Virus record (IMG/VR): IMGVR_UViG_3300025137_000383
Coordinates: 1 to 20,710 of that record
DNA from: a virus
DNA: 20,710 bases
Direction: 5' to 3' (one strand)
Shown here: piece by piece, positions 3,942-11,474 of the stretch
Layout of the letters: every line of letters starts with the position of its first letter
Position numbering within the stretch: position 1 is the stretch's first letter
Notes under the pieces: model-generated
Database searches by the model: none
What the model was told of the DNA's origin: nothing
The model's input: only the letters and a program-made list of their open reading frames with translations
Translations under genes and position numbers: made by a program

Positions 3942-4390
3942 TTATCTTCTACATTATCTAAGTATTTGTTGTGTACTTTTTGGTCACCTTGCATCCATAC
4001 TTCTAGTCTCATAAAATTTTTAGTCATCTTGTATAACCAATCATAATGTTGTACATACATTGGTTCACATCTATCTATAAAATCTTTAGGTACTGGTAGT
4101 CTAGGATATGGATACTCTCTGATAATACTTTCAGTGCAGTGATCTATAATAAATTTTGGATACTCGCATAGTAAATCAAAGTATCTCGTCAATCCTAAAT
4201 CATCTGGCACTTTAACCTGGAACGTACTAGCTATAGTCTCGAGACATATAGCCACGTCCTCTCTAGAACATGGCTTCATATCTGCACTACAACTAGTTAA
4301 GATATCAGGTGCTATACCATCAGCACGGTCAGTCTTTGCAAACTCTCTTGTTATTCCCATCTGCTTCTGTATCTGTTCGCTTCGCAACAC
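3938..4390 (-). CDS. Replication protein, possibly a helicase loader (G39P/lambda P-like)
   Basis: The C-terminal part has the pattern CLETIASTFQVKVPDDLGLTRYFDLLCEYP ... YPRLPVPKDFIDRCEPMY, an all-helical arrangement that recalls small phage proteins acting as helicase loaders. The frame is open up to an ATG at 4579, but that start would overlap the DnaT-like gene by about 250 bases in another frame. A strong site AAAAGGAGG (4404-4412, complement) lies 13 bases before a GTG at 4390, and an ATG at 4360 is a second possibility; I prefer 4390. If the true product is made by a +1 shift from the upstream frame, one longer DnaT-plus-loader protein would result. Context with SSB and recombination genes supports a replication role; function is inference. 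Confidence 0.6.
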   Translation of the reverse strand: MLRSEQIQKQMGITREFAKTDRADGIAPDILTSCSADMKPCSREDVAICLETIASTFQVKVPDDLGLTRYFDLLCEYPKFIIDHCTESIIREYPYPRLPVPKDFIDRCEPMYVQHYDWLYKMTKNFMRLEVWMQGDQKVHNKYLDNVEDK

Positions 4391-4658
4391 TAAGTATTCT
4401 ACGCCTCCTTTTCTGAACTGAATCGGTACTTGTTGCAGAATGTCCTGTACTCTTGTCGTTACGGATACGGTACTCATCTGCTCTACGGATCCAATTCCTA
4501 AACGTTGCTTCCCAATTTGCAGATACGCCTCCATTGGCAAGGTAGTAATCAACGAACTTATCTTTTTCATAACGTACATTTACCTCCGGACATGCTGATA
4601 ACATGTCCAATATTGTTTGTTTGTTGGGCATCCAACCCTCTTTCATTTTTGTTTTCAT
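4329..4658 (-). CDS. DnaT-like replication helper (helical NWEATFRNWIRRA motif)
   Basis: The protein of about 109 residues carries FVDYYLANGG...ANWEATFRNWIRRADEY near its middle, a motif known from the C-terminal domain of primosome and replication proteins such as DnaT and phage O-like proteins. After residue 70 the sequence becomes basic and of low complexity (KRRRR). The start at 4658 is the second ATG, six bases from AGGA; an ATG at 4664 sits right on that site. Its 3' part overlaps the helicase-loader-like gene in the +1 frame. The two together probably form the phage's replication-initiation unit, with the helicase supplied from outside this window. Confidence 0.6.
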   Translation of the reverse strand: MKTKMKEGWMPNKQTILDMLSACPEVNVRYEKDKFVDYYLANGGVSANWEATFRNWIRRADEYRIRNDKSTGHSATSTDSVQKRRRRILSVAKRTDTEADGNNKRVCKD

Positions 4659-4666
4659 TTGCATTC

Positions 4667-6221: not shown

Positions 6222-6551
6222 CTACTTAAGGTAGCCCTTTCTCATCCAAGATTGTACTTGTATAGCATCAAGCCAGTCAGATACTTTTGGAATGTAACCA
6301 CAATCCTCAGTGATATGCCTTTCAGCTATCAATCGAACCGGGACTTTACGTCCATCACTATTGGTTATCGTAGTGCCGAACACTTGTTCGCACATAAAGC
6401 AACCCTCAGTGTGATGTCGCAAAGCCCTATGCTTTACAGTAGCTATGTGTTTCTTACTATCATCAAACCAATCATGAATGGCTTGGTAATCCTCTGGAAT
6501 CCCGCCCCATTTCTGGACTGATGACAGTGCATGATGATAACAGTTAGCCAT
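6222..6551 (-). CDS. DUF6915 family protein
   Basis: The 109 residues match what I know of DUF6915: MANCYHHALSSVQKWGGIPEDY, IHDWFDDSKKH, VKHRALRHHTEGCF, VFGTTITNSDGRKVPVRLIAERHITEDCG and IPKVSDWLDAI. Many conserved His residues suggest metal binding or a nuclease-like active site, but the family has no established function. A strong AAGGAGGT precedes the ATG at 6551, and the start overlaps the end of the DUF6878-like gene. Such proteins are common on plasmids and phages next to DUF2958 and DUF6878 members, as here. Confidence 0.8.
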   Translation of the reverse strand: MANCYHHALSSVQKWGGIPEDYQAIHDWFDDSKKHIATVKHRALRHHTEGCFMCEQVFGTTITNSDGRKVPVRLIAERHITEDCGYIPKVSDWLDAIQVQSWMRKGYLK

Positions 6552-7110
6552 TCTTTACCTCCTTAAATCCATGACATTTAGATTCACGATAGTAAGTTTC
6601 ACATTCAATGGTAAGCACACCATCTTTGTATACAACTTCACCATTACCACCCTCATTGTTGTACCAATCAATAGATTTGTAGTTCATATAGTCACCAATG
6701 AAGTCAGTAATATACTCAGACAACAACGTAGACCTATGTTCTTCTGACGTATGTGGTTTATAAAAGATGTACTTATGTCCCATCCTCATTGGATCACGAT
6801 AGTAATCTTGCAATGCTTCCATCTTATTCCTAAGTTTTATGTACTTTGGATCAGTCCAATCCATAGTTTGCGTATCACCTAGTCCAGCTTCTTTAGTTAT
6901 AACATCTCGGTCTGGTATCTCATCTTGTGTAACAAAATGTACACTTTCAAAGTCACCACTGTCACCACCACCATTGAAACTAAGAGCAAAGTATTTGACG
7001 TCATGCTGTTCCATAAACTTATGAAACTGTGGCAATGCATGTTCTTGAAATGATTTGTTTTGTTTACTCGTACGTTCTTCCCATGTCTCTTCTACTTTAG
7101 TTGTACTCAT
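6544..7110 (-). CDS. DUF6878-like protein
   Basis: The product from the chosen start at 7110 is 188 residues (MSTTKVEETWEERTSKQNKS). Family-like features are HDVKYFALSFNGGGDSGDFESV in the N-terminal third and WYNNEGGNGEVVYKDGVLTIECETYY near the end, which match the GDSG and W.N.GG.GE patterns of DUF6878. GAGGTAA lies just before the ATG at 7110; the longer frame to 7158 has no good site and would run toward the hairpin array. Function is unknown. The 211 bases between this start and the next gene upstream are non-coding and highly structured. Confidence 0.7.
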   Translation of the reverse strand: MSTTKVEETWEERTSKQNKSFQEHALPQFHKFMEQHDVKYFALSFNGGGDSGDFESVHFVTQDEIPDRDVITKEAGLGDTQTMDWTDPKYIKLRNKMEALQDYYRDPMRMGHKYIFYKPHTSEEHRSTLLSEYITDFIGDYMNYKSIDWYNNEGGNGEVVYKDGVLTIECETYYRESKCHGFKEVKNG

Positions 7111-7197
7111 ATTGTTTACCTCATATGTTGTTATAGTTATCTGATAGAGAGATAGCATGATCCCTAAGAATCAATAGCTGTTCCCCAAGTTTTAAGT

Positions 7198-7313
7198 CGC
7201 CACCAGGGTGGCGGGTAATCACAAGGACACATATGTCCTTGTGTAAAAGGTGTGGCTTACGCCACGCCAAAGTTTTTTCGAAGAAAAAATGAGAGGTCAC
7301 GAAGACCTCTCAT
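7198..7313. other. Array of five consecutive hairpins
   Basis: Five inverted repeats stand side by side: 7198-7213 (7-bp stem, 2-base loop), 7220-7243 (10-bp perfect stem, loop CATA), 7249-7268 (8-bp stem with one G-U pair on the plus strand, loop TTAC, read as GTAA on the minus strand), 7273-7289 (7-bp A/T stem, 3-base loop) and 7289-7313 (10-bp perfect stem, 5-base loop). They fill almost all of the space between the stop at 7322 and position 7198. On the minus strand the series follows the first leftward gene. Possible roles are terminator/attenuator, RNA processing or stability element, a small RNA, or a single-strand-forming origin. Confidence 0.8.
7273..7313 (-). terminator. Intrinsic terminator after the first leftward gene
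   Basis: On the minus strand a perfect 10-bp stem (ATGAGAGGTC / GACCTCTCAT, loop TTCGT) is followed at once by a run of six T. It begins nine bases after the stop codon of the gene at 7322. This is a textbook rho-independent terminator. Because the rest of the operon has no other equally good start region upstream of 7110, it is likely to be leaky or controlled. Confidence 0.75.
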
Positions 7314-7321
7314 CCTGATAA

Positions 7322-7723
7322 TTACTTGTAGTAAGAATCAATTACTTCTTCTAGGTGAGCAGTGATTTCAAAGAAGCCTGACTCTTCAAGCTTTGGCTCT
7401 TGTTCTATGGCTTTAGCTTGTAGGTTTGTTAGTTTCTTTGGTCTTGCCTTATATCTAGATGTACCAGAAGCGTTAGCTTCATCTATTGCTGATTGATTAG
7501 CTTTGCCAAACTTGACAAGTGAACCCAATACTCTGGTAAACATACCTTGTGCCAATCTGTCAGAGGCAAAATCAAATGCATCTTCTTCTGGATTGTACGT
7601 TGGACAGATAGCACTGTATCCTGATACAACCATGATTTCAGATAACGCTTTGACCAACCTATCTTCACGATTGGCAATAGTTACTGGGTTAGTTTCGCCT
7701 GTATTAGACTTAGTATTTTTCAT
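7322..7723 (-). CDS. First gene of the leftward operon, hypothetical
   Basis: The 133 residues start MKNTKSNTGETNPVTIANREDRLVKALSEIMVVSGYSA and contain a basic middle (TSRYKARPKKLTNLQAKAIEQEPKL) and an acidic end. No family is recognised; length, charge pattern and soluble character would allow a regulator or a nucleic-acid binding protein. GGAG lies seven bases before the ATG at 7723. It is the promoter-proximal leftward gene and is followed by a terminator, so it is probably the most strongly expressed early product. A -10-like TATAAC lies upstream near 7753-7758 (complement). Confidence 0.75.
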   Translation of the reverse strand: MKNTKSNTGETNPVTIANREDRLVKALSEIMVVSGYSAICPTYNPEEDAFDFASDRLAQGMFTRVLGSLVKFGKANQSAIDEANASGTSRYKARPKKLTNLQAKAIEQEPKLEESGFFEITAHLEEVIDSYYK

Positions 7724-7763: not shown

Positions 7764-7811
7764 ATATATATTCTTTGTACGCAGTGGGGTTATCACAAAT
7801 GGCTTGTGCTA
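7764..7811 (-). promoter_or_regulatory. Leftward promoter/operator, mirror copy
   Basis: A near-perfect dyad lies at 7791-7811: arms TATCACAA and TTGTGCTA around the core ATGGC. On the minus strand TTGTGATA is followed after exactly 12 bases by ACAAAGAATATATAT (complement of 7764-7778), which runs into the leader of the first leftward gene. The same elements with the same 12-base gap occur in the opposite direction at 7887-7921. The spacing does not suit a standard -35/-10 pair, so TTGTGATA is more likely a regulator site or part of a phage-specific promoter. Confidence 0.6.
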
Positions 7812-7873: not shown

Positions 7874-7921
7874 TAGTACAAATGGCTTGTGATAGGGTAC
7901 CCACGCACAAAGAATATATAT
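7874..7921 (+). promoter_or_regulatory. Rightward promoter/operator, mirror copy
   Basis: The dyad at 7874-7894 has arms TAGTACAA and TTGTGATA around ATGGC. Twelve bases after TTGTGATA comes ACAAAGAATATATAT (7907-7921). This is the mirror of the leftward copy about the centre near 7842. TGGTTG stands just upstream of both dyads (complement near 7812 on the left, 7868-7873 on the right), which lengthens the shared unit. It would drive the small terminase gene and the rightward genes. Confidence 0.6.
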
Positions 7922-8000: not shown

Positions 8001-8375
8001 ATGTGTTATAAACATTATATGGCAATAACCAACAAAGCTAAGTTATTAGTAGATACTATCGTAGCTAGAGGATGTACGATAACAGAAGCTAGTAAGGTCG
8101 CAGGATATAAGGGTAACAGTAGTAGAGTGTCTGCCTCTAGGATGCTACATAAACCTGAGGTACAAGCCTATATGATGCAACAAGTACAGGCTAAGATAGC
8201 AATGGGTAGTACTCGTGCCATTAACACTATTGTTTCTTTGAGTGATGGTGCTAACTCAGAGTACGTACGTCTTGAAGCTAGCAAAGATATCTTAGATAGG
8301 GCAGGATTCAAAGCTCCAGATAAACATCAACACCTAGTGGATGGTGACTTCACTGTGAACATAGACATCAGCTAG
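8001..8375 (+). CDS. terS: Terminase small subunit
   Basis: The 124-residue protein has the usual small-terminase build: an N-terminal helix-turn-helix (LLVDTIVARGCTITEASKVAGYKGNSSRVSASRMLHKPEVQAYM), then helices for oligomerisation (VQAKIAMGSTRAINTIVSL, EYVRLEASKDILDRAGFKAPDK) and a short acidic end. It recognises the packaging site on phage DNA and controls the large subunit. The start at 8001 is chosen for the AAAAGGG site six bases upstream; an ATG at 8022 has no site. It is separated from the large subunit by about 3 kb of unknown genes, which is unusual but known in podoviruses. Strong small-terminase features support the call; exact subfamily not assigned. Confidence 0.82.
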   Translation: MCYKHYMAITNKAKLLVDTIVARGCTITEASKVAGYKGNSSRVSASRMLHKPEVQAYMMQQVQAKIAMGSTRAINTIVSLSDGANSEYVRLEASKDILDRAGFKAPDKHQHLVDGDFTVNIDIS

Positions 8376-8602
8376 TCTGATTAATAGTCCACGCAGTCGC
8401 GTGGTAATAATCTCTGACAGATTCTCTGTCAGGTACTATCTCGGGGGGTACGGGGGGTTGAAAACCCACCGGTCATATATATACAACCTACCTTACGAAC
8501 AATATTCCCTCAAAAAGTACTTCACATCCATTGACACCTCGTGATATAAAAGAGAGAAAGAAACCATGCGAGTTTTTTAATTTTTAAATATAGAGGTATA
8601 TT
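8376..8602 (+). other. Structured intergenic region before the late operon
   Basis: This stretch holds no credible gene. It contains a 6-bp hairpin at 8389-8404 (CCACGC / GCGTGG), an 8-bp perfect hairpin at 8414-8432 (CTGACAGA / TCTGTCAG), two runs of six G at 8443-8448 and 8452-8457, and a small hairpin at 8455-8467 (GGGTT / AACCC). The first two could end the short terminase transcript, although no U-run follows. ATATATATAC at about 8475-8484 resembles the mirror promoter region at 7914-7923. Confidence 0.65.
8521..8550 (+). promoter_or_regulatory. Putative sigma70-type promoter of the late operon
   Basis: TTCACA (8521-8526) and TATAAA (8545-8550) are each one base from consensus and are separated by 18 bases. 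Transcription would start near 8557 in AGAGAGAAAG and lead into the gene at 8603, which has AGAGG upstream of its ATG. A TTGACA at 8531 is not correctly spaced to any -10 box. Confidence 0.5.
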
Positions 8603-11268: not shown

Positions 11269-11474
11269 TGGCACACACAATAGAAGCATTAAGAAAATAC
11301 AACACACCAGCTATGAAGAAACTTGTTATAGCAGTTAAGATGAGCCATATGAAAGGATTGCCTAAAGAAGCAATGACTGATAGAGAAGCAGAAAGAGTAT
11401 TAGAAACCTTAACCCCATTGACATTAGAGAAGTTATATAAACTAGCAGTGGAACATGACCTCGTTAACCTATAA
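11268..11474 (+). CDS. Small helical protein preceding large terminase
   Basis: The 68 residues (MAHTIEALRKYNTPAMKKLV ... AERVLETLTPLTLEKLYKLAVEHDLVNL) are predicted to be all helical and basic in the first half, acidic in the second. The start overlaps the upstream stop by one base and the end overlaps the terminase start by 20 bases, so it is translated in series with them. No family is recognised. A helper or regulator of packaging would be consistent with the position, but this is inference only. Confidence 0.7.
   Translation: MAHTIEALRKYNTPAMKKLVIAVKMSHMKGLPKEAMTDREAERVLETLTPLTLEKLYKLAVEHDLVNL

Follow-up and report, generated by a model that had tools for sequence, protein, structure and literature searches.

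A predicted terminator and a conserved hairpin array downstream of the first early gene in a pelagiphage-related virus

What role could a dense row of inverted repeats play between the first gene of a viral early operon and the genes that follow it? SAR11 bacteria are among the most abundant in the ocean and, to our knowledge, little is known of gene control in their phages. The window analyzed here, i.e., the whole stretch of DNA, is a virus record of 20,710 bases. Its leftward genes, which run from ~7.7 kb down to 1.8 kb, encode an SSB, a YqaJ/RecE-like exonuclease, a LexA-like protein, a Ref-like nuclease, a DnaT-like protein (4329–4664), and DUF6915 and DUF6878 proteins; rightward genes, from 8.0 kb on, encode a terminase, a head-tail connector, and a major head protein. 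Among isolated phages, Pelagibacter phage EXVC031P Hodr (OQ414635) is the closest, with 80% identity in terL and 81% in the portal/connector. Since the nearest isolate is a Pelagibacter phage, SAR11 is, as judged from these identities, the likely host of the window phage. The OQ414635 record is titled EXVC031P Hodr, yet its locus tags read EXVC032PBaldr, and the names may be swapped.

The first-pass annotation reported five inverted repeats at 7198–7313, next to what it took to be the first leftward gene. Both points hold: the gene at 7322–7723 is the first minus-strand gene past the divergent junction, and all five repeats are present, with stems of 7 (7198–7213), 10 (7220–7243), 8 (7249–7268), 7 (7273–7289), and 10 (7289–7313) pairs. 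Read along the minus strand, the region contains the following features:

7322–7723, minus strand: gpX133, the first early gene, an ORF of 133 aa predicted to be helical.
7289–7313, minus strand: H1, putative intrinsic terminator hairpin of 10 pairs, extendable to 12 with G.U.
7273–7289, minus strand: A/T inverted repeat (H2), the H1 U-tract and then an A-tract; almost invariant in the clade, pair probabilities 0.27–0.53.
7249–7268, minus strand: H3, with a GNRA loop (GUAA; GUGA in relatives); 2 + 5 minus-strand pairs; 8 plus-strand pairs, one of them G.U.
7220–7243, minus strand: H4, a perfect 10-pair hairpin with a UAUG loop, invariant in the clade.
7198–7213, minus strand: H5, CGCCAC..GUGGCG, with an invariant stem and a loop base that is C or U.
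7111–7197, minus strand: the remaining leader, as far as the likely DUF6878 start codon; less conserved, with a weaker sixth hairpin predicted.
7119–7122, minus strand: GAGG, putative ribosome-binding site of the DUF6878 gene.
6544–7110, minus strand: DUF6878 gene, the first gene of the downstream early operon; Pfam match above the curated cut-off.
6222–6551, following the DUF6878 gene: DUF6915 gene; Pfam match above the curated cut-off.

Compared to shuffled sequences, the array folded with z scores of −6.74 on the minus strand and −7.28 on the plus strand, and 0 of 200 shuffles were as good on either strand. The 120-nt sliding window starting at 7201 ranked first of 515 in the record (z of −7.57; best elsewhere, −4.26), and no other stretch of the window is as structured as the array. 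The energies calculated for minus-strand RNA were −16.0 kcal/mol for H1, −11.4 for H3 (with its outer pairs; −14.0 on the plus strand), −13.9 for H4, −8.8 for H5, and −0.2 for the A/T repeat. Since the latter value is close to zero, the array is better described as four stable hairpins with a U-tract/A-tract than as five hairpins: four of the five repeats are stable as RNA, and the one at 7273–7289 joins the H1 U-tract to an A-tract. The UUCG loop that had been assigned to this repeat must also be given up, as there is no genuine cUUCGg tetraloop and the strand would close a UUC triloop. The 8-pair stem at 7249–7268 forms on the plus strand only, with one G.U pair; on the minus strand, a C.A mismatch leaves 2 + 5 pairs. 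The GUAA loop of H3 is a valid GNRA loop and remains one in relatives. The stem motif GTGGC/GCCAC is common to H3 and H5, while the sequence of H4 differs. Strict and permissive Rfam searches gave nothing credible; in Rfam 15, no family exceeded its gathering threshold in the window, and the best match (E of 0.68) was far below threshold.

Folding is equally good on the plus strand, and a role at the DNA level is therefore possible. The minus strand is weakly preferred as the relevant one, mainly from the direction of both flanking genes and the kept GNRA loop. Two further candidates were rejected. A switch based on cross-pairing of H3 with H5 is conceivable on paper, yet it is 12.5 kcal/mol worse than the local hairpins. 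A coding reading of the array was discarded because length differences of one base within the array and leader put the relatives in different frames.

H1 had been called a strong terminator on the minus strand, and its stem, short loop, adjoining U-tract, and position, which is kept in relatives, bear this out. The hairpin has a 5-nt loop and an energy of −16 kcal/mol; its stem end is adjoined by a run of U and then CUU, and the pentaloop, UUCGU, varies freely among relatives. By our own rule (at least 7 pairs with at least 4 G-C, a loop of 3 to 8 nt, and at least 5 T within the next 6 positions), H1 is the only intrinsic terminator in the 20.7-kb window, both strands counted. A promoter/terminator scanner did not list it; our guess is that the G.U extension of the stem eats into the U-tract. 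H1 resembles intrinsic terminators in its GC-containing stem, short loop, U-tract at the stem end, and location 6 nt past the gpX133 stop codon, and differs from them in that an A-tract and three more conserved hairpins come after its U-tract. On these features, H1 is very probably a terminator. The tandem terminators that had also been proposed are not supported beyond H1 because a proper U-tract is found at H1 only: H3 is followed by UUUUA alone, and H4 and H5 are followed by no U-tract.

Relatives of the window were collected via the neighboring DUF6915 gene, with 80 of 118 loci kept. Among the 33 loci with terS and DUF6915 matches, 31 carry a predicted terminator no more than 60 nt past an early ORF of 100 aa or more, which is the first such early ORF in 30 loci and the second in L105. 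No terminator was predicted in this slot in the remaining two loci, L066 and L076, or after the first early gene of Hodr. Since many of the 33 loci are near-identical, the 31 cases are not 31 independent events, and a better measure is the number of different terminator sequences, 13, together with first genes that form at least two families without similarity to each other. The slot survey covered all 33 eligible loci; in the 21 of them used for a strand count (180 kb), 30 terminators were predicted on the early strand versus 0 on the other strand. Overall, these comparisons suggest that a stop signal after the first early gene is the rule in this virus group.

The array is limited to one small clade in the sequence collections searched. 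It was found in four other IMG/VR contigs, one of them 99.98% identical to the window. In a covariance-model search of 36 sources chosen by hand, four (the window, L006, L007, and L008) contained the array and the remaining 32 did not; the other matches were echoes of these sites on the reverse strand and one match at chance level (L072, E of 0.3). The model did not find the array in 14 related records, and the array region had no DNA match in isolated phages. Looking for the array in other phages, a check proposed in the first-pass annotation, thus yielded a small clade of IMG/VR contigs and none of the isolated phages. A 17-base pattern of H3 matched 60 stretches, which were treated as chance; the matches inspected were those in the four array-bearing contigs. 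In openly licensed papers, we found no description of this phage or of such elements. The words “terminator,” “non-coding,” “intergenic,” and “sRNA” are absent from the main text of a study of pelagiphage transcriptomes (PMC12753301).

To compare sequences within the clade, loci that are parts of one contig were treated as follows. L001 and L005 represent one contig, the one 99.98% identical to the window, and were omitted from variation counts; L002 and L065 are parts of the L006 contig, L003 is part of L008, and L069 and L145 are parts of L007. Between the window and L006, L007, and L008, H2–H5 differ by 3.3 to 5.5%, the adjoining leader by 19.2%, DUF6878 by 17 to 20%, and gpX133 by 13 to 39%. 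None of the 46 stem columns of H3–H5 varies; if these stems changed like the leader, the chance of this would be ~5 in 100,000 by a rough estimate, and effectively two deep versions of H3–H5 are being compared, L006, L007, and L008 having nearly one leader. In the array as a whole, 10 of 39 unpaired columns vary versus 3 of 78 paired columns (Fisher p of 0.0009). The pattern points to strong constraint on H3–H5.

Three stem columns vary in H1 with pairing kept, A-U being changed to U-A in L006 and L007 and to G-U in L008. Covariation among relatives is therefore seen at H1, as one compensatory pair change in four lineages, and is not seen at H3–H5; since no stem base varies there, covariation cannot appear. 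For the structure as a whole, covariation did not stand clearly above that of shuffles, of which 37 in 500 were as high, in a test that counted L001 as a distinct row (its ends differ). The suggested selection on RNA structure thus finds support at H1, where pairing is maintained through one compensatory and one wobble change, and not at the invariant H3–H5. L006 is a mosaic with a junction at ~5236: its gpX133 is window-like, and its array and leader are L007-like. Therefore, recombination moved this block, with a breakpoint at or near H1, and the conserved array may act as a recombination joint.

The array is probably a terminator/attenuator that ends the first early mRNA and, on read-through transcripts, provides the structured leader of the next operon. 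Situated past the first early gene and ahead of the remaining operon, it has an attenuator-like position, in agreement with the attenuator proposed earlier. H1 and its U-tract would end a first, one-gene early mRNA, and polymerase that reads through, or starts nearby, would make DUF6878, DUF6915, and the products that follow. The transcript of the early operon would then start with a rigid three-hairpin leader, H3–H5, and termination at H1 would determine the amount of gpX133 relative to the products of the remaining early genes, and perhaps its timing relative to them. Sequence comparison shows the shape of H1, a terminator at a fixed place in the group, and strong constraint on H3–H5; we infer from it termination in vivo, supply of the operon by read-through, and the role of H3–H5 as a leader module that would protect or regulate the downstream mRNA. 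H3–H5 would probably act by being recognized, either by a protein or the transcription machinery, because their sequence, not pairing alone, is kept. Their strict conservation points more to a protein or RNA polymerase that reads these hairpins than to stability as such. The order “first early gene, terminator, structured leader, rest of operon” is a directly testable control point in this pelagiphage-related group.

The tandem hairpins could also be a passive mRNA stabilizer or insulator that protects RNA ends against exonucleases and blocks antisense transcription. In its favor, there are four stable hairpins in a row, and the plus strand has a terminator-like site at 7249–7268. However, stability needs pairing, not a particular sequence, yet 0 stem bases of H3–H5 have changed, and we regard this explanation as distinctly unlikely. 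A single-strand (primase/primosome) initiation site or replication origin would fit the equally good folding of both strands and the presence of genes for a DnaT-like protein and SSB. The array is, however, part of a transcription unit whose intrinsic terminator has a conserved position, and related phages with similar genes lack the array. Nothing points to the array as the replication origin suggested earlier, and no link between the DnaT-like gene and the array was found, making such a role highly improbable.

Recognition of the hairpins raises the question of the binding partner. A phage protein, e.g., gpX133, might bind the RNA hairpins or DNA dyads and thereby control read-through or translation of the operon. 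gpX133 is confined to array-bearing contigs, and gene and array are found together in every one of them; the stem sequences, and not pairing alone, are invariant, and H3 and H5 have a stem motif in common. In contrast to the unchanged hairpins, gpX133 falls to 52–54% identity among relatives, and H4 does not resemble H3 and H5. The structural model of gpX133 (pLDDT of 72) had no PDB match at E ≤ 0.001, and no RNA- or DNA-binding fold was recognized in it. Taken together, binding by gpX133 or another phage protein is rather unlikely. gpX133 has no Pfam or PHROG match and was not found in isolated phages; searches of genomes from 84,980 species of bacteria and archaea found neither gpX133 nor the array.

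In phage lambda, an RNA hairpin and a terminator, nutR-tR1, are located between the first early gene, cro, and the remaining operon. The place of H3–H5, past the first early gene and beside a terminator, recalls this arrangement. By analogy, and given their strictly conserved sequence, H3–H5 might be a cis-acting antitermination or anti-pausing RNA, similar to lambda nut or HK022 put, that would make polymerase resistant to stops downstream; we consider this unlikely. In the window, unlike in lambda, the terminator comes first, there is no convincing boxA, and no N-like protein was recognized. A 10-mer with one mismatch to lambda boxA is present at 7240–7249, between H3 and H4; however, 2.4 matches per window are expected by chance, the 10-mer is altered in L006 and L007, and the rrn-type boxA is absent from the array. 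HK022 put is reported to be a hairpin RNA of ~70 nt with two stem-loops on early transcripts (PMC9378689). The array, too, is hairpin RNA on an early phage transcript, but it has four stable hairpins in ~116 nt. While put is located upstream of the terminators it suppresses, H3–H5 lie downstream of the only intrinsic terminator predicted in the record. A put-like or nut-like role of H3–H5 is possible by analogy, in a placement other than the one that defines put. Should RNA polymerase prove to be the target of H3–H5, they would be added to the very small number of known phage control elements that consist of RNA alone; if it is not, they would be part of a well-conserved but ordinary attenuator and leader.

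Hodr shares with the window the divergent early/late layout and a long hairpin past the first early gene, but it has no array and no U-tract, and a sigma-70-like promoter follows the hairpin. The Hodr locus (L146, ~11,275–11,345, minus strand) consists of a 14-pair hairpin without a U-tract and then a TTGACA/AATAAT promoter-like site, the best of the region. Because this site in Hodr is a good sigma-70-like promoter, read-through need not be the sole route to expression of the operon. In the window, neither the leader nor the region before gpX133 has an outstanding sigma-70-like promoter. The best site in 7110–7330 takes only 207th place among minus-strand sites of the window, and a sigma-70 promoter in the array leader is therefore not supported; no promoter for the downstream operon was found in the window. 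A search for a T7-type RNA polymerase in nine related records gave no match, but the control was equally empty. The 18-base sequence CGYACAAAGAATATATAT occurs twice, exactly, at 7764–7781 (minus strand) and 7904–7921 (plus strand), facing outward to both divergent units. It has three matches at up to 3 mismatches, a number that 0 of 100 shuffles reach, and the repeat is present in close relatives too. CGYACAAAGAATATATAT may be the phage’s own promoter motif.

Other clades bear other structured or conserved sequence past the same terminator, and so the slot, not the array, is the common feature. H3–H5 and the unrelated elements in the same slot of sister clades might be exchangeable cis-acting RNAs that reprogram transcription or translation of the early operon. 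We regard this idea as doubtful; if true, it would define a new class of early-transcript control RNA in marine phages.

An element of the form TCGTTA...TTCGGCGTTG-n-GTTGCTGCCGAA is conserved just past the first-gene terminator in 28 distinct sequences of other clades (L103, L109, L113–L117, L119–L123, L126, L128, L130, L133–L137, L139, L140, L143, L144, and later loci). It had no Rfam match in 15 loci tested, nine of which are in its list or clade. The TTCGGCGTTG/GTTGCTGCCGAA pattern has 85 matches in IMG/VR, some of which resemble unrelated coding sequence. The element, most of which is invariant, could be a new structured RNA. An H-type pseudoknot was considered for it and rejected, the first stem being broken or absent in several sequences. 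A second hairpin past the terminator is found in L072 (2722–2815), L073 (1174–1266), and L074 (2957–3050), where stem sequences differ and an AGTAAAG core is common, which suggests covariation. In L066 (4924–4940) and L076 (1454–1470), which belong to clades without the terminator and the array, the DUF6878 leader contains a CTATACA-TGG-TGTATAG hairpin and a long hairpin. Last, in the window itself, the region right past the terS stop codon (8389–8457) contains hairpins at 8389–8404 and 8414–8432 and runs of six G at 8443–8448 and 8452–8457; the fold of 8361–8480 has a z score of −3.2.
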